Of a stretch of DNA of 27,500 nt, positions 8,770 to 27,500 are shown piece after piece. The stretch covers positions 3,560,001 to 3,587,500 of the forward strand of contig JACVTC010000003.1 of the NCBI GenBank assembly GCA_016946835.1. The letters are read 5' to 3'. Positions within the stretch are counted from its first letter, which is position 1. Every line of letters starts with the position of its first letter. The translations under genes were made by a program, and so were the position numbers. The DNA is from Neocallimastix lanati (nom. inval.) (taxonomy: Eukaryota; Neocallimastigomycota; Neocallimastigomycetes; Neocallimastigales; Neocallimastigaceae). The notes under the pieces were generated by a model that searched no databases, was not told the DNA's origin, and was given only the letters and a program-made list of their open reading frames with translations.

Positions 8770-8779
8770 ATTTCTTTAT

Positions 8780-8783
<4 letters not shown>
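8770..8783. repeat. Target-site duplication of LINE copy A, left
   Basis: atttctttattgat here is repeated exactly at 14117-14130. A preceding TT on both sides stretches the match to 16 bp; the TT is more likely shared with the element end, which reads CGGGTT in copy B. Confidence 0.85.
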
Positions 8784-8814
<31 letters not shown>

Positions 8815-8992
8815 GGCAGCAAACTTGTTTCATCTTTATTAATTAAATATTTGATAAAATACATGTAATAAAATAATAAAAAAAAAAAAAGATAAAAAAA
8901 TAAACAAAAAATAAAACACAAAATAAAAATAAAATAATGGTATAATATATTCTAGTTTCATTTAATTAATATTTGTAAGACTTCACAAGGGC

Positions 8993-9016
8993 ATTATTAT
9001 ACTGAAGTATAATAAT
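8993..9016 (-). other. Perfect hairpin in LINE 3' UTR (copy A)
   Basis: A 10-bp perfect stem with a 4-nt loop (TTCA on the element strand), about 32 nt after the stop codon. It is identical in copy B (14448-14471). It could help the reverse transcriptase recognise its RNA, as 3' stem-loops do in some LINEs; this is inference. Confidence 0.5.
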
Positions 9017-9047
9017 TAACTTTGACTTCGCAATGTTAATCATAATT

Positions 9048-12000
9048 TTAAGATACAAAATTATGATCTTCATTGGTTGCGCTAGCCCTGCTGGCCTGTC
9101 TTACTGTTTCTTCAGCATTGACACTCTTGGTAGTAGTAGTACGATTCGATTTGAACCTATTGAACAAAGACCATTGCTGGCCAATAGCAATAGGTATAAT
9201 CGATTGGAGAAGTGCCGCAGTAACCACTAAGAACGGAGTATCAGAATAAGCACCTGATTTCATCTGGCACTTAAATAGATCCTTCCATTCCCTTGTACTG
9301 TTATTAATACTTCGACCTCCAAGAAGGAAATTAAACACTTTTTCACACACACTAGAATCAATATACACATTATTTTCAATACTATTACTAACATTACTAA
9401 AAATACTATTACTAATATTATTATTACTATTATAACTATTACTATTATTACTATTACTATTATCATTATTACTATTAACAATATCATTTGTTAGGTTGCC
9501 ACGGTAAAAAGCATTATATAAAAATAAAATTTTATCATTAACTTTACTACGAGTATGATTGAAAAAGGGACAATCAATTAACCAATGACTTATCCATTGT
9601 TTATTACTTTTACAACAGGGACAAAAATTAGGACACATTTGGTCCACTATTTTTGCAGCTTTAGCAATTCTAGCATCTAATCTATATCCGCTTCGTGCTC
9701 TCAATAGCCAATAGAAACCATATGAAAGATCAGGATAGTCATAACAAAGTTTTATAAAATTTTGATGTTTCTTCGAATTTGTTTTTGTCATAAAACTCAG
9801 CTTTAATAGAATTGATTTTCATATCTCTTTTCCAATAAAAATCCTTGATTTTATTATCGTTATTACCTCTTTTCTCTAGTTTACGTTTAAGAGTTCTACT
9901 TTCTTTTGTCCATGTATATTTTCTAGATTTTGGAATATTATTAACTAAATAGGAAATAATACAATTTGAATTTTTCCATTTATCAAAACATTTGACCTGA
10001 GACAAAGCACACTTAGCTGACAATGGAGGAATATGTAAATCTTTTGAAATAGAATATACATTAATAAATGATTTGGCTTTTTGTATACCTGCAATCCATC
10101 TTAATCCTTTATTAATTAATTTCTGAGTATTATTTGTTCTCGTTTTATTCGAACCAAGTAAAGGTGCAAAGTAAGAGACTTTACTAAGTACATAAGAGTT
10201 AATTATAATCTTCTTAAATGGAATAGGAATTTTGGAATTTGAAAGAAATTTACTAACAGAAAAGAGAGCTTTAGTTACTTTAGAGTTAAGTAATTTAATA
10301 ATAGGTTTCAACGATAAGCTTTTATCAAATGGTATACCTAAATAGGTATAACATTTAGTTATTGGAATTGGTTGACCAGCAAGATAAAAAGTAGGATCTC
10401 TTTTATTTTGAAAAAGAGGTGTGTCTGGTCGAATCACCATCGTTGCACACTTATTAATTCCAAAATTCATCATATTAAATTTAGCCCATTCATTTACCTT
10501 CTTAAGCATTTTTTTCAACTTAGTTCTTGACGGTGCGCATAGAACAATATCATCTGCAAAGAGTCCACCACAACATCTAGATTCGCCTAAAGGAATTCCA
10601 AGTTCTGAAACATCATTAAAAATGTCATTAATAAAAAGATTGAAAAGAATTGGTGATAGTGGACAACCTTGTCTAACTCCTTTCATAATATTAAAAGATT
10701 CCGAATATTGATCATCAATTTTAACACTAGCTTTGGATGTCAAATATAGATTTTTTATAAATTGATAACATTTACCTCTAATACCTAAAGCATCTAATTT
10801 ATATAAAATATTACCTATTGGAACAGAATCATATGCCTTTTTTAAATCTAGAAAAGCTAGGTAAGTTTCTTTATTATCATTTTTACGCCTTTGACAAATT
10901 TCTCGAATTGAAATAAATAAACAAACACATTCTTCTTTAGTACGAAATCCAAATTGCTCTGGCCTAATAAAATTATTTTTAAGTCCATATTCTGAAATTC
11001 TTTTGGAGACTATTTTCGAAATGAGTTTAATACCATTGTTAATCAGAGAGATACCTCGATAATTGTCACAATCAGATAGATCATCTCCTTTTTTAGGAAT
11101 AGATATAATACTTGCTTCATTCCATGAGCTAGGAAATTCTCCATTCCAAATTCTTGAGTATATCTTCTGTAAACAATTTAAACCAGAAGAAGAATTATTT
11201 ACTGAATTTTCGTCATCCGGAGGAATTAAAGCTTTATAAAATTCAATAGGAATTCCATCCGGGCCTGAAGCTTTAAAATTTGGAGTAGCCAAAATTGCTT
11301 CTCTAATTTCTTCTATACTGATGTCTTGATTTATATCCCATTCATTGTGTCTCGTATACCTAATTGTTCCATTGGAAAATTATTATACCATTCGATTAAT
11401 GCACTATTGATATCAGAATGGCTTGAAGCAAGTTTTTTATAGTGATTGTGCCATACTTCTAACTGTTCTTTAGTAGAAGTAGCTAGTTTACCATTTTTGT
11501 CCTTTACTGGAGAATTTGACATATTTTTAAATTTATCTACTTTTGCTGTTGTTTTAAGCCATTTCCAAGCTTTTTTAGGGTTATGAGATTTCATATATTC
11601 ACATCCTGTATTAATCCAATGCTGGTATTCAGTTTTCCTATAAATATTACACATATGATGAATAATTTTGCACATTCTATTATATTTATCAATTAATTCT
11701 TCAAATTCATCTAAATTATGATAAGAACCTCTTCTTTTAATGGATTTATATAATTTCATTTTGAGTTTTTGCAAATTAAATATTTTCTGCGACATATGAA
11801 AAAAAGATTTTCGAACTTCTGAAATTGACGTGATATTAAGTTCCTTAGCAATATTGAATGAAGTTGAAATAAATTTCTTTGAAATATCATCAATACTAAT
11901 ATTAGGATCTGGAATCAATTCCTCTAATACACTAAAATAGTTGTTGTCAAAAATTGATTCTTTTTCATTTATACATTTTAATCTATCCCATTTAACTGTC

Positions 12001-13457
12001 TTTTTAGGCAGAGAGAAAGAATTATCTGAATTAACTGATGAAAAACATTTACTTTTTATTAATAAAGGTTTATGATCCGAAATGGGGGGAAAGTCAATAA
12101 AAGTACCATATGAAAGTAAATCTAACATATGATCATTGACAATCGCATGATCTATATCAGATTCTCTATTACCTCTACTCCATGAAATTGGGGAGCCCCA
12201 TAAGGGAAGAATTTTCCAATTACTAAATTTAGAGAGCAAATTACTTAATTTCTCAGTAGGTAAATTAAAATCACCAACCAACATTGAAGGATGAGAAGAG
12301 TGACTATTTAACCAAGACAATATTTCAATTCTAGCAGCTCTAGCATGAAGGCTATGGCCACTATGAGGTACGTACACATTACCAATAGAACATTTAGTGA
12401 AATTCCAAAAATTATAAGTATACAAGGAAATAATATACTCATAAGTGTTGTTTTCAAGAGAGGCTTGACAAGAATTATGAAACCCAATATAAAGACCTCT
12501 TTTACCGGGAATTTCATTATTAGCTTTTTTGAAGAAATGTTTGTAGTTTTTTAATGATACTCGACATGGATATTTACTGCTAGAACCTGAACCATTTCCT
12601 GTTTCCTGAAAGCATAAGAAAAGTGGTTTGTACATTGAAATAAAGAATTCAACACTGTCTTTTTTATCAAAGTTCCATCCATTAGTATTCCAACTGACAC
12701 ATAGAGAAAATTCTTTAACTGTATTATTATTAATATAAGTGTTATTAATATTATTGGAATTATTATAATTGATTGAACTGAAATTTGAATTTGAATCTGA
12801 GCTTGAAACTGAATTTAAACATAAATTTGAAATTGAACTTGAACTTGTACTTGAACTTGAACTTGAACTTGAACTTGAACTTGAACTTGAACTTGAACTT
12901 GTACTTGAACTTGTACTTGAACTTGAACTTGAAATTGTACTTGAACTTGGACTTGAACTTGAACTTGAGCTTGTACTTGAACTTGAACATGAATCTGTAT
13001 TTGAACTTGAATTTGAATTTTGACTTGAATCTGCATTTGAATTTGAAGTAGTGAATAAGTTGATATTATAAGATGAATTCACTTTTTCTGATAAGGCAAA
13101 ATGTTTCCTTTTGAGTGAAGAAAAACTGTATTTATGATTCCTTTTGCTACAATTAATAACGTTAATTGAAGCACGTTTGAAACTATTAACAATACAATCA
13201 GTAATAGATGTTAATTCTTCTTCATTACCTACTATTTTAATTTTAAAGAATGCATCATTAAAATTAGCAATACGTTTAACTGATAAAACCTTATCATTTA
13301 ATTCATTCAGAGTTTTCTTTAAATGTCTTCTCATTTTGATTTCTGGCCAAGATCGAAGTCCGCGGATAAAGAGTAGTTTCGTATTCTCCATTGGTATACC
13401 GTGGCACCTTGAACCTCTTAGAATGAAATTCTTATTTCTTATAAATTGGATTTCCAT
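9048..13457 (-). pseudogene. LINE copy A polyprotein, two frameshifts
   Basis: The same protein as copy B, split into three overlapping open pieces. Piece 1 (11331-13457) covers the RRM-like segment, Ser linker, endonuclease and the linker to RT. Piece 2 (9739-11292) covers RT, including DLKKAYDS, RQGCPLSP and FADD. Piece 3 (9048-9791) covers the CCHC motif and C-terminus. Compared with copy B there is a one-base deletion near 11377-11386 (a T run) and a one-base insertion in the A run at 9756-9759. Only about ten other residue changes are visible outside the Ser tract (for example K for Q at residue 9, M for L at 299, C for S at 870). The Ser tract is 72 nt shorter. Confidence 0.9.
12836..13010 (-). 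repeat. CAAGTT hexamer array coding Ser-Ser (copy A)
   Basis: On the coding strand the array alternates TCA and AGT codons, both serine, with some ACA/AGT changes giving Thr. It is 24 codons shorter than in copy B while the flanks are nearly identical. Long open frames in the other five phases here are shadows of the array. Confidence 0.8.
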
Positions 13458-14066
13458 AATAGTAATAAAAAACTAAAAATTAATAACTAAAAAAAAAAAA
13501 ATAAAAAAAAGTCAATTTTTATTATAAAGTCTTGAGTATAATGAGAATTGTAACAATTTTATATCTTTTTGGAGTAAATAATTTCGATAATTAGTAGTTT
13601 GTTGAATGATTGAAAAATAATTTGATTTAGCACTTTTTTCAGTATATTATTTAAATTGAATATCATAAAGTATTTAATGACTAAGATTGAATTGATGAAA
13701 TAAAATGGCACAAAATTAGTAAAGAGTTAAATAAATTACTACAAGATTTAGAGTGAATCAATCTCTTACAACGTGATACATGAAATATAAAGTTGAAATA
13801 CAATTGAATACAATAGATTCTTACATGAGAATAGTAATACTACATGAAAATAGAAATACAATGAAAATGTATTACTAATTCTTGGGTGTAACTTATTTAA
13901 CAATGTTCCAAAAATGCACCATTATATTCCGCAGTGAGTGTTCACCAGAAAAATTTTACCAATAACATTACCATTGCGCATAATGTTATTAATTAACACA
14001 AAATATAACTTTACTACTATTTTGCACCAGTACTGTGGATCTACTTTATAAGAGTAAAGTTAATTC

Positions 14067-14114
14067 CCCTTGCAGGCGATTTAAATACATAAATCGAGTA
14101 CACCCCTGCTCGGG
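14067..14114 (-). other. 5'-terminal stem-loop of LINE copy A
   Basis: On the element strand the first 48 nt can fold as CCC/GGG, a GA/AA internal loop, GCAGG/CCTGC, an 8-nt bulge, then CGATTTA/TAAATCG with a 6-nt loop. The same fold exists in copy B (19592-19639). It could be part of a promoter, translation or processing structure. I could not fit the HDV-like ribozyme fold found at some LINE 5' ends. Confidence 0.4.
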
Positions 14115-14116
14115 TT

Positions 14117-14130
14117 ATTTCTTTATTGAT
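14117..14130. repeat. Target-site duplication of LINE copy A, right
   Basis: Exact copy of 8770-8783, directly at the 5' end of the element. Confidence 0.85.
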
Positions 14131-14232
14131 ATAAATAAATAAATAAATAAATAAATAAAAATAAGATTTTTTTTTTAATTTTATTTATTATTATTTTTTA
14201 TGATTAAATTTAATGTGATTAAATTTTTTATA
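14131..14232. other. 102-bp spacer between the two LINE copies
   Basis: An (ATAA)n array followed by AT-rich unique DNA. It is pre-insertion genomic sequence, which shows the copies integrated separately. Confidence 0.8.
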
Positions 14233-14246
14233 TGAAAAAAAAAGAT
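14233..14246. repeat. Target-site duplication of LINE copy B, left
   Basis: tgaaaaaaaaagat, repeated exactly at 19642-19655. Confidence 0.85.
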
Positions 14247-14447
14247 TTTTTTTTTTTTTTTTTTTTTAACGGCAGCAAACTTGTTTCATCTTTATTAATT
14301 AAATATTTGATAAAATACATGTAATAAAATAATAAAAAAAAAAAAGATAAAAAAATAAACAAAAAATAAAACACAAAATAAAAATAAAATAATGGTATAA
14401 TATATTCTAGTTTCATTTAATTAATATTTGTAAGACTTCACAAGGGC

Positions 14448-14471
14448 ATTATTATACTGAAGTATAATAAT
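14448..14471 (-). other. Perfect hairpin in LINE 3' UTR (copy B)
   Basis: The same 10-bp stem and 4-nt loop as 8993-9016. Confidence 0.5.
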
Positions 14472-14502
14472 TAACTTTGACTTCGCAATGTTAATCATAA
14501 TT

Positions 14503-17500
14503 TTAAGATACAAAATTATGATCTTCATTGGTTGCGCTAGCCCTGCTGGCCTGTCTTACTGTTTCTTCAGCATTGACGCTCTTGGTAGTAGTAGTACGAT
14601 TCGATTTGAACCTATTGAACAAAGACCATTGCTGGCCAATAGCAATAGGTATAATCGATTGGAGAAGTGCCGCAGTAACCACTAAGAACGGAGTATCAGA
14701 ATAAGCACCTGATTTCATCTGGCACTTAAATAGATCCTTCCATTCCCTTGTACTGTTATTAATACTTCGACCTCCAAGAAGGAAATTAAACACTTTTTCA
14801 CACACACTAGAATCAATATACACATTATTTTCAATACTATTACTAACATTACTAAAAATACTATTACTAATATTATTATTACTATTATAACTATTACTAT
14901 TATTACTATTACTATTATCATTATTACTATTAATAATATCATTTGTTAGGTTGCCACGGTAAAAAGCATTATATAAAAATAAAATTTTATCATTAACTTT
15001 ACTACGAGTATGATTGAAAAAGGGACAATCAATTAACCAATGACTTATCCATTGTTTATTACTTTTACAACAGGGACAAAAATTAGGACACATTTGGTCC
15101 ACTATTTTTGCAGCTTTAGCAATTCTAGCATCTAATCTATATCCGCTTCGTGCTCTCAATAGCCAATAGAAACCATATGAAAGATCAGGATAGTCATAAC
15201 AAAGTTTTATAAATTTTGATGTTTCTTCGAATTTGTTTTTGTCATAAAACTCAGCTTTAATAGAATTGATTTTCATATCTCTTTTCCAATAAAAATCCTT
15301 GATTTTATTATCGTTATTACCTCTTTTCTCTAGTTTACGTTTAAGAGTTCTACTTTCTTTTGTCCATGTATATTTTCTAGATTTTGGAATATTATTAACT
15401 AAATAGGAAATAATACAATTTGAATTTTTCCATTTATCAAAACATTTGACCTGAGACAAAGCACACTTAGCTGACAATGGAGGAATATGTAAATCTTTTG
15501 AAATAGAATATACATTAATAAATGATTTGGCTTTTTGTATACCTGCAATCCATCTTAATCCTTTATTAATTAATTTCTGAGTATTATTTGTTCTCGTTTT
15601 ATTCGAACCAAGTAAAGGTGCAAAGTAAGAGACTTTACTAAGTACATAAGAGTTAATTATAATCTTCTTAAATGGAATAGGAATTTTGGAATTTGAAAGA
15701 AATTTACTAACAGAAAAGAGAGCTTTAGTTACTTTAGAGTTAAGTAATTTAATAATAGGTTTCAACGATAAGCTTTTATCAAATGGTATACCTAAATAGG
15801 TATAACATTTAGTTATTGGAATTGGTTGACCAGCAAGATAAAAAGTAGGATCTCTTTTATTTTGAAAAAGAGGTGTGTCTGGTCGAATCACCATCGTTGC
15901 ACACTTATTAATTCCAAAATTCATCATATTAAATTTAGCCCATTCATTTACCTTCTTAAGCATTTTTTTCAACTTAGTTCTTGACGGTGCGCATAGAACA
16001 ATATCATCTGCAAAGAGTCCACCACAACATCTAGATTCGCCTAAAGGAATTCCAAGTTCTGAAACATCATTAAAAATGTCATTAATAAAAAGATTGAAAA
16101 GAATTGGTGATAGTGGACAACCTTGTCTAACTCCTTTCATAATATTAAAAGATTCCGAATATTGATCATCAATTTTAACACTAGCTTTGGATGTCAAATA
16201 TAGATTTTTTATAAATTGATAACATTTACCTCTAATACCTAAAGCATCTAATTTATATAAAATATTACCTATTGGAACAGAATCATATGCCTTTTTTAAA
16301 TCTAGAAAAGCAAGGTAAGTTTCTTTATTATCATTTTTACGCCTTTGACAAATTTCTCGAATTGAAATAAATAAACTAACACATTCTTCTTTTGTACGAA
16401 ATCCAAATTGCTCTGGCCTAATAAAATTATTTTTAAGTCCATATTCCGAAATTCTTTTGGAGACTATTTTCGAAATGAGTTTAATACCATTGTTAATCAG
16501 AGAGATACCTCGATAATTGTCACAATCAGATAGATCATCTCCTTTTTTAGGAATAGATATAATACTTGCTTCATTCCAAGAGCTAGGAAATTCTCCATTC
16601 CAAATTCTTGAGTATATCTTCTGTAAACAATTTAAACCAGAAGAAGAATTATTTACTGAATTTTCGTCCTCCGGAGGAATTAAAGCTTTATAAAATTCAA
16701 TAGGAATTCCATCCGGGCCTGAAGCTTTATAATTTGGAGTAGCTAAAATTGCTTCTCTAATTTCTTCTATACTGATGTCTTGATTTATATCCCATTCATT
16801 GTGTCTCGTATACCTGATTGTTCCATTGGAAAATTTATTAGACCATTCGATTAATGCACTATTGATATCAGAATGACTTGAAGCAAGTTTTTTATAGTGA
16901 TTGTGCCATACTTCTAACTGTTCTTTAGTAGAAGTAGCTAGTTTACCATTTTTGTCCTTTACTGGAGAATTTGACATATTTTTAAATTTATCTACTTTTG
17001 CTGTTGTTTTAAGCCATTTCCAAGCTTTCTTAGGGTTATGAGATTTCATATATTCACATCCTGTATTGATCCAATGTTGGTATTCAGTTTTCCTATAAAT
17101 ATTACACATATGATGAATAATTTTGCACATTCTATTATATTTATCAATTAATTCTTCAAATTCATCTAAATTATGATAAGAACCTCTTCTTTTAATGGAT
17201 TTATATAATTTCATTTTGAGTTTTTGCAAATTAAATATTTTCTGCGACATATGAAAAAAAGATTTTCGAACTTCTGAAATTGACGTGATATTAAGTTCCT
17301 TAGCAATATTGAATGAAGTTGAAATAAATTTCTTAGAAATATCATCAATACTAATATTAGGATCTGGAATCACTTCCTCTAATACACTAAAATAGTTGTT
17401 GTCAAAAATTGATTCTTTTTCATTTATACATTTTAATCTATCCCATTTAACTGTCTTTTTAGGCAGAGAGAAAGAATTATCTGAATTAACTGATGAAAAA

Positions 17501-18984
17501 CATTTACCTTTTATTAATAAAGGTTTATGATCCGAAATGGGGGGAAAGTCAATAAAAGTACCATATGAAAGTAAATCTAACATATGATCATTGACAATCG
17601 CATGATCTATATCAGATTCTCTATTACCTCTACTCCATGAAATTGGGGAGCCCCATAAGGGAAGAATTTTCCAATTACTAAATTTAGAGAGCAAATTACT
17701 TAATTTCTCAGTAGGTAAATTAAAATCACCAACCAACATTGAAGGATGAGAAGAGTGACTATTTAACCAAGACAATATTTCAATTCTAGCAGCTCTAGCA
17801 TGAAGGCTATGGCCACTATGAGGTACGTACACATTACCAATAGAACATTTAGTGAAATTCCAAAAATTATAAGTATACAAGGAAATAATATACTCATAAG
17901 TGTTGTTTTCAAGAGAGGCTTGACAAGAATTATGAAACCCAATATAAAGACCTCTTTTACCGGGAATTTCATTATTAGCTTTTTTGAAGAAATGTTTGTA
18001 GTTTTTTAATGATACTCGACATGGATATTTACTGCTAGAACCTGAACCATTTCCTGTTTCCTGAAAGCATAAGAAAAGTGGTTTGTACAATGAAATAAAG
18101 AATTCAACACTGTCTTTTTTATCAAAGTTCCATCCATTAGTATTCCAACTGACACATAGAGAAAATTCTTTAACTGTATTATTATTAATATGAGTGTTAT
18201 TAATATTATTGGAATTATTATAATTGATTGAACTGAAATTTGAATTTGAATCTGAGCTTGAAACTGAATTTAAACATAAATTTGAAATTGAACTTGAACT
18301 TGTACTTGAACTTGAACTTGAACTTGAACTTGTACTTGAACTTGTACTTGAACTTGAACTTGAACTTGAACTTGAAATTGTACTTGAACTTGGACTTGAA
18401 CTTGAACTTGAACCTGTACTTGAACTTGTACTTAAACTTGTACTTGAACTTGAACTTGAGCTTGTACTTGAACTTGTACTTGAACTTGAACTTGAGCTTG
18501 TACTTGAACTTGAACATGAATCTGTATTTGAACTTGAATTTGAATTTTGACTTGAATCTACATTTGAATTTGAAGTAGTGAATAAGTTGATATTATAAGA
18601 TGAATTCACTTTTTCTGATAAGGCAAAATGTTTCCTTTTGAGTGAAGAAAAACTGTATTTATGATTCCTTTTGCTACAATTAATAACGTTAATTGAAGCA
18701 CGTTTGAAACTATTAACAATACAATCAGTAATAGATGTTAATTCTTCTTCATTACCTACTATTTTAATTTTAAAGAATGCATCATTAAAATTAGCAATAC
18801 GTTTAACTGATAAAACCTTATCATTTAATTCATTCAGAGTTTTCTTTAAATGTCTTCTCATTTTGATTTCTGGCCAAGATCGAAGTCCGCGGATAAAGAG
18901 TAGTTTCGTATTCTCCATTGGTATACCGTGGCACCTTGAACCTCTTAGAATGAAATTCTGATTTCTTATAAATTGGATTTCCAT
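14503..18984 (-). CDS. LINE single-ORF polyprotein: RRM-like, Ser linker, APE endonuclease, reverse transcriptase, CCHC
   Basis: 1493 aa. The ATG at 18984 is the first in frame (TAG lies upstream) and has A at -3 and G at +4. Residues 26-102 have an RRM-like strand-helix-strand-strand-helix-strand order (inferred). Residues 148-240 are Ser/Thr-rich. The APE-type endonuclease spans about 275-490: WNTNG (280-284), QET (308-310), GDFN (419-422), SDIDH (457-461) and SDH (484-486). Reverse transcriptase spans about 740-1070: NYRGISL, DLKKAYD with Asp895, RQGCPLSP (953-960), FADD (991-994) and YLG. A C-x2-C-x8-H-x4-C motif lies at 1303-1320, then an Asn-rich stretch (1350-1385). By family knowledge the endonuclease nicks target DNA and the RT primes cDNA from the nick (TPRT). 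The motif RQGCPLSP is closer to L1/Tx1/RTE than to Jockey/I types; the clade is not settled. There is no separate ORF1, so the N-terminal part may do that job. Confidence 0.95.
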   Translation of the reverse strand: MEIQFIRNQNFILRGSRCHGIPMENTKLLFIRGLRSWPEIKMRRHLKKTLNELNDKVLSVKRIANFNDAFFKIKIVGNEEELTSITDCIVNSFKRASINVINCSKRNHKYSFSSLKRKHFALSEKVNSSYNINLFTTSNSNVDSSQNSNSSSNTDSCSSSSTSSSSSSSTSSSTSSSSSSSTSLSTSSSTGSSSSSSPSSSTISSSSSSSSSSTSSSTSSSSSSSSSTSSSSISNLCLNSVSSSDSNSNFSSINYNNSNNINNTHINNNTVKEFSLCVSWNTNGWNFDKKDSVEFFISLYKPLFLCFQETGNGSGSSSKYPCRVSLKNYKHFFKKANNEIPGKRGLYIGFHNSCQASLENNTYEYIISLYTYNFWNFTKCSIGNVYVPHSGHSLHARAARIEILSWLNSHSSHPSMLVGDFNLPTEKLSNLLSKFSNWKILPLWGSPISWSRGNRESDIDHAIVNDHMLDLLSYGTFIDFPPISDHKPLLIKGKCFSSVNSDNSFSLPKKTVKWDRLKCINEKESIFDNNYFSVLEEVIPDPNISIDDISKKFISTSFNIAKELNITSISEVRKSFFHMSQKIFNLQKLKMKLYKSIKRRGSYHNLDEFEELIDKYNRMCKIIHHMCNIYRKTEYQHWINTGCEYMKSHNPKKAWKWLKTTAKVDKFKNMSNSPVKDKNGKLATSTKEQLEVWHNHYKKLASSHSDINSALIEWSNKFSNGTIRYTRHNEWDINQDISIEEIREAILATPNYKASGPDGIPIEFYKALIPPEDENSVNNSSSGLNCLQKIYSRIWNGEFPSSWNEASIISIPKKGDDLSDCDNYRGISLINNGIKLISKIVSKRISEYGLKNNFIRPEQFGFRTKEECVSLFISIREICQRRKNDNKETYLAFLDLKKAYDSVPIGNILYKLDALGIRGKCYQFIKNLYLTSKASVKIDDQYSESFNIMKGVRQGCPLSPILFNLFINDIFNDVSELGIPLGESRCCGGLFADDIVLCAPSRTKLKKMLKKVNEWAKFNMMNFGINKCATMVIRPDTPLFQNKRDPTFYLAGQPIPITKCYTYLGIPFDKSLSLKPIIKLLNSKVTKALFSVSKFLSNSKIPIPFKKIIINSYVLSKVSYFAPLLGSNKTRTNNTQKLINKGLRWIAGIQKAKSFINVYSISKDLHIPPLSAKCALSQVKCFDKWKNSNCIISYLVNNIPKSRKYTWTKESRTLKRKLEKRGNNDNKIKDFYWKRDMKINSIKAEFYDKNKFEETSKFIKLCYDYPDLSYGFYWLLRARSGYRLDARIAKAAKIVDQMCPNFCPCCKSNKQWISHWLIDCPFFNHTRSKVNDKILFLYNAFYRGNLTNDIINSNNDNSNSNNSNSYNSNNNISNSIFSNVSNSIENNVYIDSSVCEKVFNFLLGGRSINNSTREWKDLFKCQMKSGAYSDTPFLVVTAALLQSIIPIAIGQQWSLFNRFKSNRTTTTKSVNAEETVRQASRASATNEDHNFVS
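18291..18530 (-). repeat. CAAGTT hexamer array coding Ser-Ser (copy B, expanded)
   Basis: Same array as in copy A but 72 nt longer, with extra blocks punctuated by Thr codons. It sits between the N-terminal segment and the endonuclease. Confidence 0.8.
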
Positions 18985-19591
18985 AATAGTAATAAAAAAC
19001 TAAAAATTAATAACTAAAAAAAAAAAATAAAAAAAAGTCAATTTTTATTATAAAGTCTTGAGTATAATGAGAATTGTAATAATTTTATATCTTTTTGGAG
19101 TAAATAATTTCGATAATTAGTAGTTTGTTGAATGATTGAAAAATAATTTGATTTAGCACTTTTTTCAGTATATTATTTAAATTGAATATCATAAAGTATT
19201 TAATGACTAAGATTGAATTGATGAAATAAAATGGCACAAAATTAGTAAAGAGTTAAATAAATTACTACAAGATTTAGAGTGAATCAATCTCTTACAACGT
19301 GATACATGAAATATATAGTTGAAATACAATTGAATACAATAGATTCTTACATGAGAATAGTAATACTACATGAAAATAGAAATACAATGAAAATGTATTA
19401 CTAATTCTTGGGTGTAACTTATTTAACAATGTTCCAAAAATGCACCATTATATTCCGCAGTGAGTGTTCACCAGAAAAATTTTACCAATAACATTACCAT
19501 TGCGCATAATGTTATTAATTAACACAAAATATAACTTTACTACTATTTTGCACCAGTACTGTGGATCTACTTATAAGAGTAAAGTTAATTC

Positions 19592-19639
19592 CCCTTGCAG
19601 GCGATTTAAATACATAAATCGAGTACACCCCTGCTCGGG
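19592..19639 (-). other. 5'-terminal stem-loop of LINE copy B
   Basis: Identical pairing to 14067-14114. Confidence 0.4.
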
Positions 19640-19641
19640 TT

Positions 19642-19655
19642 TGAAAAAAAAAGAT
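19642..19655. repeat. Target-site duplication of LINE copy B, right
   Basis: Exact copy of 14233-14246. Confidence 0.85.
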
Positions 19656-20837: not shown

Positions 20838-21175
20838 ATAATAATAAATAATAATTGAATAATAAATAATAAATAATAAGTAATAAATAATAAATAATAA
20901 ATAATAAATAATAAATAATAAAATAAATAATAAAAAGAGTATTTATTAATAAATAATAAATAATAAATAATAAAAAGAGTATTTATTAATAAATAATAAA
21001 TAATAAATAATAAATAATAGAGTAATAAAAAGAGTATTTATTAATAAATAATAAATAATAAATAATAAATAATTGAATAATAAATAATAAATAAATAAAT
21101 AAATAATAAATAAATCATGAATAATATAAAGAGTATTTATTAATAAATAATTGAATAATAAAAATTAATTTATTA
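20838..21175. repeat. AATAAATAAT minisatellite, array 1
   Basis: Tandem AATAATAAAT words with a higher-order marker, AAAAAGAGTATTTATTAATA, at about 20932, 20972, 21027 and (variant) 21127. The marker contains the perfect palindrome TATTTATTAATAAATA. AATTGAATAATAAAT variants also occur. Confidence 0.75.
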
Positions 21176-21494
21176 AATGGAATTAACAAAAAAAAAAAAA
21201 TTTTTTTTTCTTTTAGATTAGAGAGATAAACTTTATTTAATAATAAATTTTAAAATCTTTAAAATTCTTCATAAATAATTTTATGTTTTTTTTTTTTTTT
21301 TATTTTTGTATAACATAAATTATAACTTAAATAAATATAAAATAAATTAAATTTTATGAAAAAGCAAAAAGCAAAACAACAAAAATGGAAAAAAAACAAA
21401 TAAAAAAATTAAATAAAAAGAGAATTTTAAATATAAAGAATAGATTGAATAAAAAATAAAAATAAATATCATAATTAACAATTTAAAAGTATAT
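21176..21494. other. AT-rich spacer between minisatellite arrays
   Basis: Poly-A/poly-T patches and an AAGCAAAA-rich stretch near 21359-21420. No gene is supported. Confidence 0.5.
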
Positions 21495-22040
21495 AAATAA
21501 TAAATAATAAATAATAAATAATAAATAATAAATAATAATTGATAATAATAAATAATAAATAATAAATAATAAATAATAAATAATAAATAATAAATAATAA
21601 ATAATAAATAATAAATAATAAATAATAATTGATAATAATAAATAATAAATAATAAATAATAAATAATAAATAATAAATAATAAATAATAAATAATAAATA
21701 ATTGAATAATAAATAAATAAATAATAAATAATAAATAATAAATAATTGAATAATAAATAAATAAATAATAAATAATAAATAATAAATAATAAATAATAAA
21801 TAATAAATAATAAATAATAAATAATAAATAATAAATAATAAATAATACATAATAAATAATAAATAATAAATAATAAATAATAAAAAAGAGTATTTATTAA
21901 TAAATAATAAGTAATAATATAATTTGAATGATAAATAATAAATAATAAATAATAAATAATAAATAATAAATAATAAAAAGAGTATTTATTAATAAATAAT
22001 AATGAATAATAGAATAATAAATAAATAATAATGAATAATA
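21495..22040. repeat. AATAAATAAT minisatellite, array 2
   Basis: A longer array of the same family. It has internal higher-order duplication: aattgataataataaat at about 21536 and again about 90 bp later, and attgaataataaataaataa twice near 21700 and 21746. The AGAGTATTTATTAATAAAT marker recurs at about 21886 and 21979. The hydrophobic minus-strand frames through here are translated repeat, not genes. Confidence 0.75.
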
Positions 22041-22951
22041 TTAATATTAATATAATAAAAATAATAATAAAAAGTAATAATCTTAATCTTAATAATAATA
22101 ATAATAATATTAGTGTTAATAATATTACTAATACTCCTAATATATATAAAATTTTAATCATTCCATACAACATGAAATATTATATTAAAAAAACAAAATT
22201 AATTTTTTATATCTTAAAATAGTTTATTTCATATGATATAGAAAAAAAAATTTTTTTTTTTATTTTTTAAAAAAAAAAAAATTTTTATTAATGCATGTCC
22301 ATCCATCTAAAACAAACAAAAAAACATCATAAATCATATATATACTACGATATTATAATTATTCTTTAAAAAAAAAATAATAATAAAATAAATAAATCAT
22401 AAGTAATAATTAATAAATAATAAATAATAAATATTTTTTTTTTAATGAAGCATGATACTTTAAATAAAAGTCTTAATATACTAAAGTCTTTTATACTTTG
22501 TATTATCACTAATATTCTTTTAAATTTTTATTATTAACAATAGAAATTTATTTTATTGTATTTTTTTTTTTTTTTTATTAACTGAACTCCTATAATATCA
22601 TTTATATTTTTTTTTCAATTTTTATTACTACTATAGAAGTTTATTTTAATTTGTTTTATTTTTATTGATTTATTTTTTGAACGAATGAACATTAATTATT
22701 ATATTATATTATATAAATATATATATATTTATAATTAATTTATTACTATTATTACTTAGTTTTTTTTTTTTTTTTTTTTGGTTTTTTTTAAAAAAAAAAA
22801 AATATTAAATATAATCATTTATGTAATTACTTTTATATTTTTCATTATTAGAAAATTATTTCATTAAACTTAATATCTTTTAATAATATCTTTTAATCAT
22901 ACTTTTTTTTTTTTTTTTAATTTAAACATTTATCTTCAATATTACATATAT
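22041..22951. other. AT-rich intergenic DNA
   Basis: AATAAT arrays to about 22110, poly-T/poly-A junctions near 22250-22285 and 22760-22801, and a short more complex patch near 22286-22350. No gene is seen. Confidence 0.55.
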
Positions 22952-23812: not shown

Positions 23813-23877
23813 CTACAAGAATCAAAAAATTTTGATTATCATATCATATTCTTATTGTATATATAAGACTCTAAATT

Positions 23878-24050
23878 CAATTTAGATTTACCAATAAAAC
23901 TATAAATCAGTTTTAGAGCTGATATGATATAGTCATCGATGAAATACCTTAATAAACAATTTTCAATTTAGATTAATTAATAAAACTCTAAAATCAGTTC
24001 TAGAGCTGATATGATATAGTCATCGATGAAATAACTTAATAAACAATTTG
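23878..24050. repeat. Tandem duplication, two units of about 87 bp
   Basis: Unit 1 (23878-23963) and unit 2 (23964-24050) share a 31-bp perfect core starting agagctgatatgatatag. Each contains the palindrome TCATCGATGA, and the ATCAGTTCTAGAGCTGAT stretch of unit 2 is a near-palindrome. On the minus strand both units also encode a similar short peptide, YFIDDYIISAL. It lies upstream of the Cys-rich exon and could be a promoter repeat, an intronic repeat or a duplicated exon. Confidence 0.7.
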
Positions 24051-24660: not shown

Positions 24661-27500
24661 ATGAAATCAATTATACCATCTATTAAATATTTAGCATTAG
24701 AAAAACAAATTAGTTTATATATTATTTTAGAATGTATATATAAAGAAATAGACATTGTTAAAAGTAATCCTTATTTTAATGATATAAAGTTTTTAAATTT
24801 GAATTGGAATTTAGACTTCGTAATAAATATTTCAATATAAATTTAAATGATTTTCTTAGTACTAATTCTTGTCAATATTCGGAATTCTCTCATAGTGAAA
24901 ATACAAAAACACGATATAGAATAATATTTAATTCAACATTCCCTTGTACTAAAAATAAGAACGAAAATGAAACGACAGCAACTTCAATTTCCAATTTATA
25001 GACATTTCTAAATTTTTAAATTATTTGGAAAATAATAAAGATTAAGAAATCACAAATACCTTAAAAATTGTATAGAGTATACTAAAAAAATTAACCATTA
25101 TGACCATTCTATTATTTTATATTTAAAATTAATCTTAGTGTCGAAATTCCATTAGATTTATCGTCCATTAAGGAATATTTAAAATTGAAAATGAAAATGA
25201 AAATGAAAATGAAAATGAAAATGAAAATGAAAATGAAAATGAAAATGAAAATGAAAATGAAAATGAAAATGAAAATGAAAATGAAAATGAAAATGAAAAT
25301 GAAAATGAAAATGAAAATGAAAATGAAAATGAAAATGAAAATGAAAATGAAAATGAAAATGAAAATGAAAATGAAAATGAAAATGAAAATGAAAATGAAA
25401 ATGAAAATGAAAATGAAAATGAAAATGAAAATGAAAATGAAAATGAAAATGAAAATGAAAATGAAAATGAAAATGAAAATGAAAATGAAAATGAAAATGA
25501 AAATGAAAATGAAAATGAAAATGAAAATGAAAATGAAAATGAAAATGAAAATGAAAATGAAAATGAAAATGAAAATGAAAATGAAAATGAAAATGAAAAT
25601 GAAATGAAAATGAAAATGAAAATGAAAATGAAAATGAAAATGAAAATGAAAATGAAAATGAAAATGAAAATGAAAATGAAAATGAAAATGAAAATGAAAA
25701 TGAAAATGAAAATGAAAATGAAAATGAAAATGAAAATGAAAATGAAAATGAAAATGAAAATGAAAATGAAAATGAAAATGAAAATGAAAATGAAAATGAA
25801 AATGAAAATGAAAATGAAAATGAAAATGAAAATGAAAATGAAAATGAAAATGAAAATGAAAATGAAAATGAAAATGAAAATGAAAATGAAAATGAAAATG
25901 AAAATGAAAATGAAAATGAAAATGAAAATGAAAATGAAAATGAAAATGAAAATGAAAATGAAAATGAAAATGAAAATGAAAATGAAAATGAAAATGAAAA
26001 TGAAAATGAAAATGAAAATGAAAATGAAAATGAAAATGAAAATGAAAATGAAAATGAAAATGAAAATGAAAATGAAAATGAAAATGAAAATGAAAATGAA
26101 AATGAAAATGAAAATGAAAATGAAAATGAAAATGAAAATGAAAATGAAAATGAAAATGAAAATGAAAATGAAAATGAAAATGAAAATGAAAATGAAAATG
26201 AAAATGAAAATGAAAATGAAAATGAAAATGAAAATGAAAATGAAAATGAAAATGAAAATGAAAATGAAAATGAAAATGAAAATGAAAATGAAAATGAAAA
26301 TGAAAATGAAAATGAAAATGAAAATGAAAATGAAAATGAAAATGAAAATGAAAATGAAAATGAAAATGAAAATGAAAATGAAAATGAAAATGAAAATGAA
26401 AATGAAAATGAAAATGAAAATGAAAATGAAAATGAAAATGAAAATGAAATGAAAATGAAAATGAAAATGAAAATGAAAATGAAAATGAAAATGAAAATGA
26501 AAATGAAAATGAAAATGAAAATGAAAATGAAAATGAAAATGAAAATGAAAATGAAAATGAAAATGAAAATGAAAATGAAAATGAAAATGAAAATGAAAAT
26601 GAAAATGAAAATGAAAATGAAAATGAAAATGAAATGAAAATGAAAATGAAAATGAAAATGAAAATGAAAATGAAAATGAAAATGAAAATGAAAATGAAAA
26701 TGAAAATGAAAATGAAAATGAAAATGAAAATGAAAATGAAAATGAAAATGAAAATGAAAATGAAAATGAAAATGAAAATGAAAATGAAAATGAAAATGAA
26801 AATGAAAATGAAAATGAAAATGAAAATGAAAATGAAAATGAAAATGAAAATGAAAATGAAAATGAAAATGAAAATGAAAATGAAAATGAAAATGAAAATG
26901 AAAATGAAAATGAAAATGAAAATGAAAATGAAAATGAAAATGAAAATGAAAATGAAAAATGAAATGAAAATGAAAATGAAAATGAAAATGAAAGTGAAAT
27001 GAAAATGAAAGTGAAAATGAAAGTGAAAGTGAAAGTAGAGTTATAAATAATAGTGAAATAGAAATGTTAAATAAAAATATATAATAATAGTGATAGTATT
27101 ATCAATAATAATATAGAAACAGAAAACAAGTATATTGAAAAGAGTAATTTAGAAAATAATACTACAAATAATATAATATCTTACCAAAACAATTATATCG
27201 ATTCAGGAATTTCATTAACCATTTTAAAATACATTACACCTATTATTAAGAAAAGACGATCTTTTTTTAATGAAAAATGGTGTTCGTATTGATATGACAA
27301 CTTTTGATGATAAGAATCAATTAGAAGTCGATTTTTCAAATAATATTTTTTATGAGAAAGAGGATATTATAAATATGATTCATTCAATCATGTTATCGTT
27401 AGATTGTACAAATTTCATTCTGGATTATCTATTTTTTTTTTTTTGCCAAATTATGAATTTCTAGAAACCAATTACTCCTTCGCTTGATATTTTATATAAA
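24661..27500 (+). pseudogene. Frameshifted gene interrupted by a giant (GAAAAT)n array; possible NRPS-like C-terminal segment
   Basis: ATG 24661 opens a 59-codon frame (MKSIIPSIKYLALEKQIS...). The reading then jumps to the 24804-25001 frame (RLRNKYFNINLNDFLS), then to FIDISKFLNYLENNKD, then to a frame with VEIPLDLSSIKEY running into the hexamer array. After the array the Glu-Ser/Asn frame continues (SRVINNSEIEML), shifts near 27080, and again into 27270-27464 (VDFSNNIFYEKEDIINMIHS). This last segment resembles the end of an NRPS condensation domain (F-x-x-x-x-I...M...), a weak call. At least five frame changes are needed. It runs off the window. Confidence 0.4.
25187..27037 (+). repeat. (GAAAAT)n hexanucleotide array, about 1.85 kb
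   Basis: Almost pure GAAAAT from 25187 to about 26955, then variants with GAAAGT to about 27037. Single A deletions occur near 25602, 26447, 26632 and 26997, and an extra A near 26955. In the frame continuous with the downstream peptide it encodes Glu-Asn, then Glu-Ser. The Lys-Met frames are an alternative phase and not a gene. Confidence 0.95.

Follow-up and report, generated by a model that had tools for sequence, protein, structure and literature searches.

How did two full-length LINEs come to lie 102 bp apart in the same orientation in the genome of Neocallimastix lanati? In the window, i.e. the whole stretch of 27,500 nucleotides that was analysed, both elements are on the minus strand and each is enclosed by its own perfect 14-bp target-site duplication (TSD). 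Copy A (8784..14116) is flanked by ATTTCTTTATTGAT on the left (8770..8783) and on the right (14117..14130), and copy B (14247..19641) by TGAAAAAAAAAGAT (14233..14246 and 19642..19655). On the plus strand of the whole window these sequences have exact matches only at 8770 and 14117 and at 14233 and 19642, respectively. The element end AACGGCAGCAAACTTG was found exactly twice in the window (8812 and 14268), as was the element end CCCCTGCTCGGGTT (14103 and 19628). Between the insertions lies an AT-rich spacer of 102 bp (14131..14232), and the poly(T) tracts of the two copies are 29 and 22 long. The perfect 14-bp duplications described in the sequence-only reading hold for the forward strand; on the element strand their length is ~13-15 bp, with end bases that can be assigned to the tail or to the element. 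When flanks were paired at random, a TSD of at least 11 bp arose in ~1% of the trials. Because the two TSDs differ, a tandem segmental duplication is ruled out for this pair, as that reading had concluded; the tails differ as well and the spacer is not duplicated. In the arrangement given by the assembly, the two TSDs show that each copy of this APE-type LINE was inserted by a target-primed event of its own. ARAGORN (bacterial-gene setting) and Rfam (at the gathering threshold) gave no match in the window.

The copies were 97.9% identical by BLAST and differed by substitution at 26 of 4991 sites (0.52%), the variable serine-codon repeat being excluded. They are near-identical and full length as claimed, but an unbroken ORF is present in copy B only, the frame of copy A being broken by single-base length differences. 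The single ORF of copy B (14503..18984, minus strand, as are all features within it) encodes 1493 aa. An APE-type endonuclease domain (Exo_endo_phos, aa 278-486, 17527..18153; Pfam PF03372, E 2.1e-8) precedes a reverse transcriptase domain (RVT_1, aa 811-1067, 15784..16554; PF00078, E 6.2e-39), and towards the C-terminus there is a weak zf-RVT-like Cys/His motif (aa 1300-1324, 15013..15087; PF13966, E 0.0065), which at 17.5 bits is below the curated cut-off of 27.5. The serine-codon repeat (18228..18556) varies in length between the copies, copy A having gaps of 34 and 38 bases. Besides the AP-endonuclease-like domain N-terminal to the reverse transcriptase, the poly(A) tail, the TSDs at variable sites and the frequent 5' truncation are those of the APE-type non-LTR retrotransposons (LINEs), to which the element is assigned from its sequence.

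A search of the window's own genome (199 Mb, AT-rich) yielded 428 exact 3' ends versus 100 exact 5' ends. Among the matches listed (C1-C59), a 5' end was present at 5.15-5.7 kb from 21 of the 100 3' ends. In most copies the 5' end is truncated or altered, and many have only the 3' end in common. The supposed efficiency of full-length synthesis was therefore borne out in part. Recent activity of the family is supported by the low divergence of the pair, by the intact ORF and by the many fetched copies that, in the part seen, matched copy B at 99-100% identity, all of which is evidence from sequence. The TSDs were tabulated in 62 rows, of which 32 were full length; eight of the 20 fetched full-length pairs lacked an end motif and were omitted, and L077-L082, fetched for their 5' ends, had no element match and were left unused, likewise L076. 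A TSD of at least 11 bp was found in 20 of the 32 full-length copies with both flanks, and a short TSD was absent in 11.

The local target preference that the pair had suggested was examined by counting pairs among the first 100 listed matches of each of three families (the element's own, X and Y), the distance being that between 3' ends. Among the matches listed, pairs less than 3 kb apart were on the same strand in 59 cases and on opposite strands in two. The same:opposite counts were 45:8 at 3-8 kb, 21:4 at 8-15 kb, 27:9 at 15-30 kb and 40:28 at 30-60 kb, by which distance the bias had faded. These counts are non-independent, islands such as those on C24 giving many pairs. Below 3 kb opposite pairs occurred at the rate expected at random (2 versus 2.7), so that an orientation-blind hotspot is unnecessary, and same-strand pairs were ~20-fold above it. 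Adjacent 3' ends of the own family less than 7 kb apart (100 of the 428 being listed) were on the same strand 17 times and never on opposite strands, with 1.5 expected in all. The bias crossed family lines, the same:opposite counts being 18:0 for own-Y, 11:1 for own-X and 10:1 for X-Y among the matches listed. Islands of the three families (gap below 3 kb, C1-C34) were uniform in strand in 33 of 34 cases, versus a mean of 14.8 and a maximum of 26 in 2000 strand shuffles. Where the flanks of different insertions had DNA in common, it lay in the same direction in 429 matches and inverted in 18. Statistically, then, new copies of the own family and of at least two others land preferentially in or within a few kb of existing LINEs, in the same orientation. 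This preference is stronger than was first claimed, in that it extends to orientation and holds between families. A regional polarity was rejected, since own adjacent copies more than 15 kb apart were on the same strand in 18 cases and on opposite strands in 26 among the matches listed. A same-strand excess at 60-120 kb (72:31, partly from C24) and an opposite-strand excess at 120-300 kb (104 same, 144 opposite), again among the matches listed, are not needed by a strictly local model and stay unexplained.

The same polarity was seen in individual insertions. Those with a short TSD in or near LINE coding DNA were sense in 18 to 20 cases and antisense in none; apart from the window pair they number 17 to 19. 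All five TSD insertions inside LINE DNA in which the host ORF continues across the joined site were sense, and so were three less directly shown (L020, in the 5' region of its own family, and the short ones of L018 and L031). Nesting in copies of the own family, always sense, occurred in L039 and L056/L057, where the host ORF runs through the junction, and in L020. With the window pair counted once, insertions with a TSD of at least 11 bp outside simple repeats and with LINE coding DNA seen in the flank were sense in 10 of 10 cases, or 12 of 12 when L074 (simple repeat) and L023 (9-bp TSD) were added; L017 and L038, which have A-run TSDs and sense neighbours, were omitted. Antisense LINE coding neighbours were found at L028 (3' flank) and L029 (upstream), neither with a recognised TSD. 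The 3' flank of L030, a copy likewise without a recognised TSD, contributed 11 of the 18 inverted matches.

The base preference of the endonuclease was considered as the cause of this polarity and rejected as far as a strong effect is concerned. What the 23 nick sites with a TSD (L017, L022 and L074, in poly(A) or simple repeats, being omitted) had in common was a weak context around A|T, partly set by the trimming of poly(A), and not one fixed target sequence as in the site-specific LINEs (R1/R2, telomeric SART/TRAS). L1 target sites start with an A run; unlike these, the TSDs here have no initial A run. A weight matrix from 18 sites outside LINEs predicted sense:antisense ratios from 0.97 (ORF) to 1.20 (whole element), i.e. 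~1:1, a coarse estimate, as held-out sites scored -0.95 on average and so weak a matrix rules out only a strong effect. In the ORF, A4 runs on the sense strand outnumber those on the other strand by a factor of 1.7 (94 versus 54), an excess that could bias orientation modestly.

That side-by-side and nested LINEs tend to face alike points to an unusually directional choice of insertion sites. In the reading that we prefer, with a probability of about 60%, LINE insertion is drawn to resident LINEs and copies their polarity, with some reuse of sites and some template jumping in addition. A first insertion of random orientation would seed an island and later arrivals would inherit its polarity, the nick of the endonuclease falling on the resident LINE's template strand. 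Two causes of this strand choice may be considered, the regeneration of sites at poly(A)/TSD junctions and a strand-specific opening of LINE DNA that is transcribed.

It is conceivable, if rather doubtful, that the first of these would suffice: as in the human CLIQUEs, poly(A)/TSD junctions would recreate endonuclease sites of fixed polarity, on which later insertions stack alike. Reuse of sites was indeed found. On C33 TAAGAATAAAA is present three times, and on C57 the downstream flank of a full copy repeats DNA starting at the poly(A) of a short copy. The C57 pair was also considered as a duplication, its 3' flanks being nearly the same, but it fits an insertion at the poly(A) of the short copy with a TSD of ~350 bp. 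In L097, which has a 43-base tail, the TSD is at the end of a poly(A) tract. The CLIQUEs are biased too, with an inverted:direct ratio of 0.385 for adjacent full-length Alu pairs in clusters and one of ~0.07 where the spacer is no longer than 24 bp, according to PMC3215922. The same source gives nearly equal numbers of the four Alu pair types at spacers of 51-500 bp, whereas the bias described here spans kilobases between 3' ends. Moreover, insertions inside LINE ORFs, away from such junctions, are also sense (the five directly shown), and site reuse fails to explain the window pair because its two TSDs differ.

Template jumping, by which one integration would chain several LINE RNAs head to tail and each uniform island would be a single cDNA, is unlikely as the general explanation and insufficient as the sole cause. 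Jumping from end to end of templates by the R2 reverse transcriptase is reportedly the subject of a paper cited in PMC2881922, and head-to-tail joints without an intervening TSD resemble its products. In L008 positions 1-159 of the element are followed by position 3 onward within one TSD, which is a template jump, and the poly(A) of one LINE passes directly, with no TSD, into another copy, truncated or full, in e.g. L027, L029, L034, L050 and L059. Insertion into existing tails should lengthen them, but full-length copies that lack a short TSD had tails with a mean of 22.5 (n=11), no longer than the mean of 29 (n=20) in copies that have one. Twelve copies flagged as adjoining an upstream poly(A) had tails of 6-43; one of these copies (L039:4079) is in fact the remainder of a host copy. 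L097, on the other hand, fits insertion into a tail, and the LINE-associated sense insertions with their own short TSDs argue against jumping. The window pair is not a jump product of the R2 type, because each copy has its TSD. Jumps between LINE RNAs would contribute extra head-to-tail pieces and could account for part of the polarity. A loss of inverted pairs, by which insertion is unbiased and close inverted repeats are unstable and deleted, was proposed for Alu pair exclusion in human (PMC3215922), but it is very improbable here, as opposite pairs below 3 kb were not below the random rate (small numbers), the same-strand pairs being in excess instead, and as the bias also holds between families with unrelated 3' ends. 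With 428 exact 3' ends in a genome of 199 Mb a few neighbours could arise at random, but chance is equally improbable, since own-own pairs below 3 kb numbered eight on the same strand and none on opposite strands versus ~0.32 expected per orientation (C1-C59, among the matches listed).

Eight copies were initially candidates for long TSDs. After a check of the edges two were secure, L068/L069 (identical at all 251 positions) and L101/L102 (at 184 of 188). L043 probably has a long TSD, of about 350 bp and in tandem repeats, and L060 possibly has one; L058, L089, L121 and L037 were rejected, their match being family sequence or not extending to both junctions. Because the flanks have LINE families in common, random pairs scored high (269 trials, 95% point 101, top scores 201-453), and the case for L101 (178), L068 (251) and L043 (281) is therefore made by the exact edges and not by the score. 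In the copies examined, long TSDs were found only in or beside LINE sequence. A literature search by title found no paper on long LINE TSDs or on LINEs of anaerobic fungi. Within the preferred reading, attraction to resident LINEs, it may be speculated, with little confidence, that integration is tied to transcription of the resident LINE or to its R-loop state. The template strand would then be nicked and polarity inherited whatever the family, and the cut in the displaced strand would lie close by in some cases (TSD of 13-14 bp) and far off in others (251 and 188 bp, probably about 350 bp).

Neighbouring human retrotransposons have a moderate orientation bias, which PMC3215922 explains by the endonuclease sites of TSDs and of A-rich stretches. 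Among close neighbours the bias described here is near-absolute; it persists over kilobases, holds between families and is not accompanied by an excess of opposite pairs below 3 kb. For these reasons the LINEs of this genome form a good system for asking how the strand is selected in target-primed reverse transcription, whether by sequence, by transcription or by the resident element. They also bear on the origin of LINE arrays of the type that become centromeres in algae. The closest known systems are the human CLIQUEs and the Zepp arrays of green algae. CLIQUEs (Alu, L1, SVA) are catenated clusters of mixed families that share a TPRT route and have a preferred orientation (PMC3215922), and the three-family islands resemble them in being mixed and biased in orientation. 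Direct pairs are in slight excess out to 350 kb in human, as reported there. Unlike in CLIQUEs, the opposite:same counts here are 2:59 below 3 kb and 8:45 at 3-8 kb (between 3' ends, not as spacer; among the matches listed). Zepp and Zepp-like LINEs (L1-type) insert into existing copies and form nested tandem arrays of mostly 3' ends; in Coccomyxa each chromosome has a single cluster, which is taken to be its centromere (PMC8226300). Insertion into existing copies was likewise observed here, always sense. In contrast to Coccomyxa, however, there is no single cluster per chromosome at a telomere or centromere but many small islands along the contigs, several of them interior on one contig (e.g. 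C1, C24, C30), and, unlike in Zepp arrays, these mix at least three families.

An exact-repeat search of the window bore out the proposal, made in the sequence-only reading, of two LINEs that each carry their own perfect 14-bp duplication and are separated by 102 bp of spacer DNA, which is AT-rich. Together with the reading of the window it placed both copies on the minus strand, A spanning 8784-14116 and B 14247-19641. Copy B contains a single open frame of 1493 aa with AP-endonuclease-like and reverse transcriptase domains (a zf-RVT match was weak and below threshold). The element is an APE-type LINE built around one long ORF. Copy A shares this organisation, but its frame is interrupted by single-base length differences. 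The ORF includes a serine-codon repeat (18228-18556 and 12773-13047) whose length varies among copies. When this repeat was left out, the two copies differed at 26 of 4991 sites (0.52%). By comparison with three other full-length copies, five substitutions were private to copy A and 16 to copy B, and five sites were undecided; because of this difference copy B may perhaps be the older insertion. The window also holds, at 25182-27034, a very pure tandem array of some 310 AAAATG units (6 bp, 99% matches), whose long Met-Lys frames are unlikely to be genes; at 20840-22080, a degenerate 1.2-kb array of a 7-bp A/T unit (AATAATA), in which AT and GC skew are unusual; and an 87-bp tandem duplication (two copies, 92% matching) at 23876-24049.

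In the assembly (199.0 Mb, 762 contigs, the window lying in C223) the element's final 16 nt plus six A gave 428 exact matches (219 forward, 209 reverse), and a 24-mer of the 5' end gave 100 genome-wide (61/39). The size of this genome and its very low GC content would fit an anaerobic gut fungus. The places of the first 100 of the 428 3' ends and of all 100 5' ends were used. On contigs C1-C59, 21 of the 100 3' ends had a 5' end at 5.15-5.7 kb, and many fetched copies were 99-100% identical with copy B over the part compared. The family appears to be young and to contain a sizeable minority of full-length copies. At L006, L003 and L007 an intact 5' end is soon followed by distant or foreign LINE sequence, as internal deletions or chimeras.

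Adjacent 3' ends of this family less than 7 kb apart lay on the same strand in 17 cases and on opposite strands in none, with 1.5 expected in all; beyond 15 kb the figures were 18 and 26 (C1-C59, first 100 of 428). The same-strand bias was found again, inside families and across them, for two further LINE families, X (3' end ...TTTATTCCTAGTCT-poly(A), 325 exact matches) and Y (...ATTCTCTTCCCTGTCT-poly(A), 617). When the first 100 matches of each of the three families were taken, 59 same-strand and two opposite pairs, not all independent of each other, were closer than 3 kb among the matches listed. As 2.7 per orientation are expected at random, with effective lengths inferred from the counts, opposite pairs were at chance level and same-strand pairs at about 20 times chance. 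Among the same matches the ratio of same to opposite pairs was 45:8 at 3-8 kb, 21:4 at 8-15 kb, 27:9 at 15-30 kb, 40:28 at 30-60 kb, 72:31 at 60-120 kb and 104:144 at 120-300 kb. The excess at 60-120 kb shows some longer-range polarity, partly from C24. Over about 150 kb of that contig (606764-754186) the minus strand carries all 11 LINE 3' ends among the matches listed, which belong to three families. Of 34 islands (LINE groups with gaps below 3 kb; C1-C34, 218 elements) 33 were uniform in orientation, compared with a mean of 14.8 and a maximum of 26 in 2000 shuffles. Genome-wide, four pairs of neighbouring 5' ends were less than 12 kb apart, all on the same strand (one being the doubled 5' end of L008), and a fifth pair, 23 kb apart, was on opposite strands.

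A target-site duplication (TSD) of at least 11 bp, mostly 13-15 bp, was present in 20 of the 32 full-length copies with both flanks, the window pair included; random pairing of flanks gave one in about 1%. One other copy had an 8-bp TSD where a poly(A) ends, and 11 were without short TSD. In 17 of the 20, the TSD was separated from the element by 1-3 bases, mostly pyrimidines, which are presumably non-templated. The nick context (23 sites) was weak: T-rich sequence precedes the nick, position -1 is A and position +1 is T, an A|T boundary that depends partly on poly(A) trimming. Two full-length insertions without short TSD showed direct duplications reaching both junctions, an exact one of 251 bp (L068/L069) and one of 188 bp with 184 identical (L101/L102), and a third, L043, probably has one of about 350 bp; the score control behind this test was poor. 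All three lie in or beside LINE sequence. The first two far exceed the usual TSD length.

To study nesting, each insertion was excised in silico together with one copy of its TSD, and the sequence across the rejoined site was translated. The host ORF was continuous through the junction, in sense orientation, in five cases (L052/L016, L056/L057, L039, L066/L067 and L072/L073), the hosts of L056/L057 and L039 being copies of the same family as the insertion. Three more TSD insertions within LINE DNA, on less direct evidence, were also sense: L020 in the family's own 5' region, the short copy of L018, where the reading frame of the host stays open through the junction and LINE matches follow downstream, and that of L031, whose host lacks an ORF match of its own and is related to the L018 host (70% identical, same direction). 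Another ten insertions with a TSD of at least 11 bp, the window pair counting as one, had LINE coding sequence in the flank examined (about 450-1500 bases per side), all sense; L074 and L023 would raise these to twelve. In seven others (L062, L064, L048, L091, L103, L117 and L049) a LINE coding match was absent from the flanks examined. Antisense neighbours occurred at L028 (3' flank), L029 (upstream) and L030 (via shared non-coding DNA), and no TSD was recognised in any of them. Across 62 insertions, DNA shared between flanks matched in the same direction 429 times and inverted 18 times, 11 of the 18 involving L030. Shared flank DNA departs from the same-direction rule chiefly beside this short copy, where an inverted stretch about 260-510 bases into the 3' flank resembles family Y in its 3' region.

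Three processes can be made out. Reuse of a site is seen at C33:82553-82669 (L065 41-170), where a full copy and one of about 48 bases adjoin and the TSD sequence TAAGAATAAAA occurs three times, and on C57, where the downstream flank of a full copy repeats DNA starting at the poly(A) of a short one. Template jumping is seen in several copies joined directly onto another poly(A) and at L008 (1500-1661), where element positions 1-159 precede a complete 5' end with one TSD around both, as a jump to a second RNA would produce. Sense insertions made independently, in LINE bodies or close to them, account for the window pair and the nested and near-LINE TSD cases. A weak target-base matrix from 18 non-LINE sites gave a sense:antisense ratio of 0.97 when applied to the ORF and 1.20 when applied to the whole element; A4 runs are distributed 94:54 in favour of sense, possibly a modest contribution to orientation. 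Loss of inverted pairs does not explain the bias, since opposite pairs show no depletion and families with unrelated 3' ends share it. Targeted and polar insertion of LINEs is well supported; for the strand-choosing step we infer that the resident LINE would determine which strand is nicked, via regenerated sites, transcription or both.

The same combination was not found in literature searches by listings, which does not prove its absence from print. According to PMC8226300, the green-algal LINE Zepp forms tandem arrays, mostly of 3' ends, by nested insertion in existing copies, with one cluster per chromosome in Coccomyxa. Human CLIQUEs are described in PMC3215922 as mixed, orientation-biased queues of Alu, L1 and SVA with an inverted:direct ratio of 0.385 and a bias that peaks at spacers of at most 24 bp. 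The present islands share features with both systems, and their bias is stronger and reaches over a wider range.
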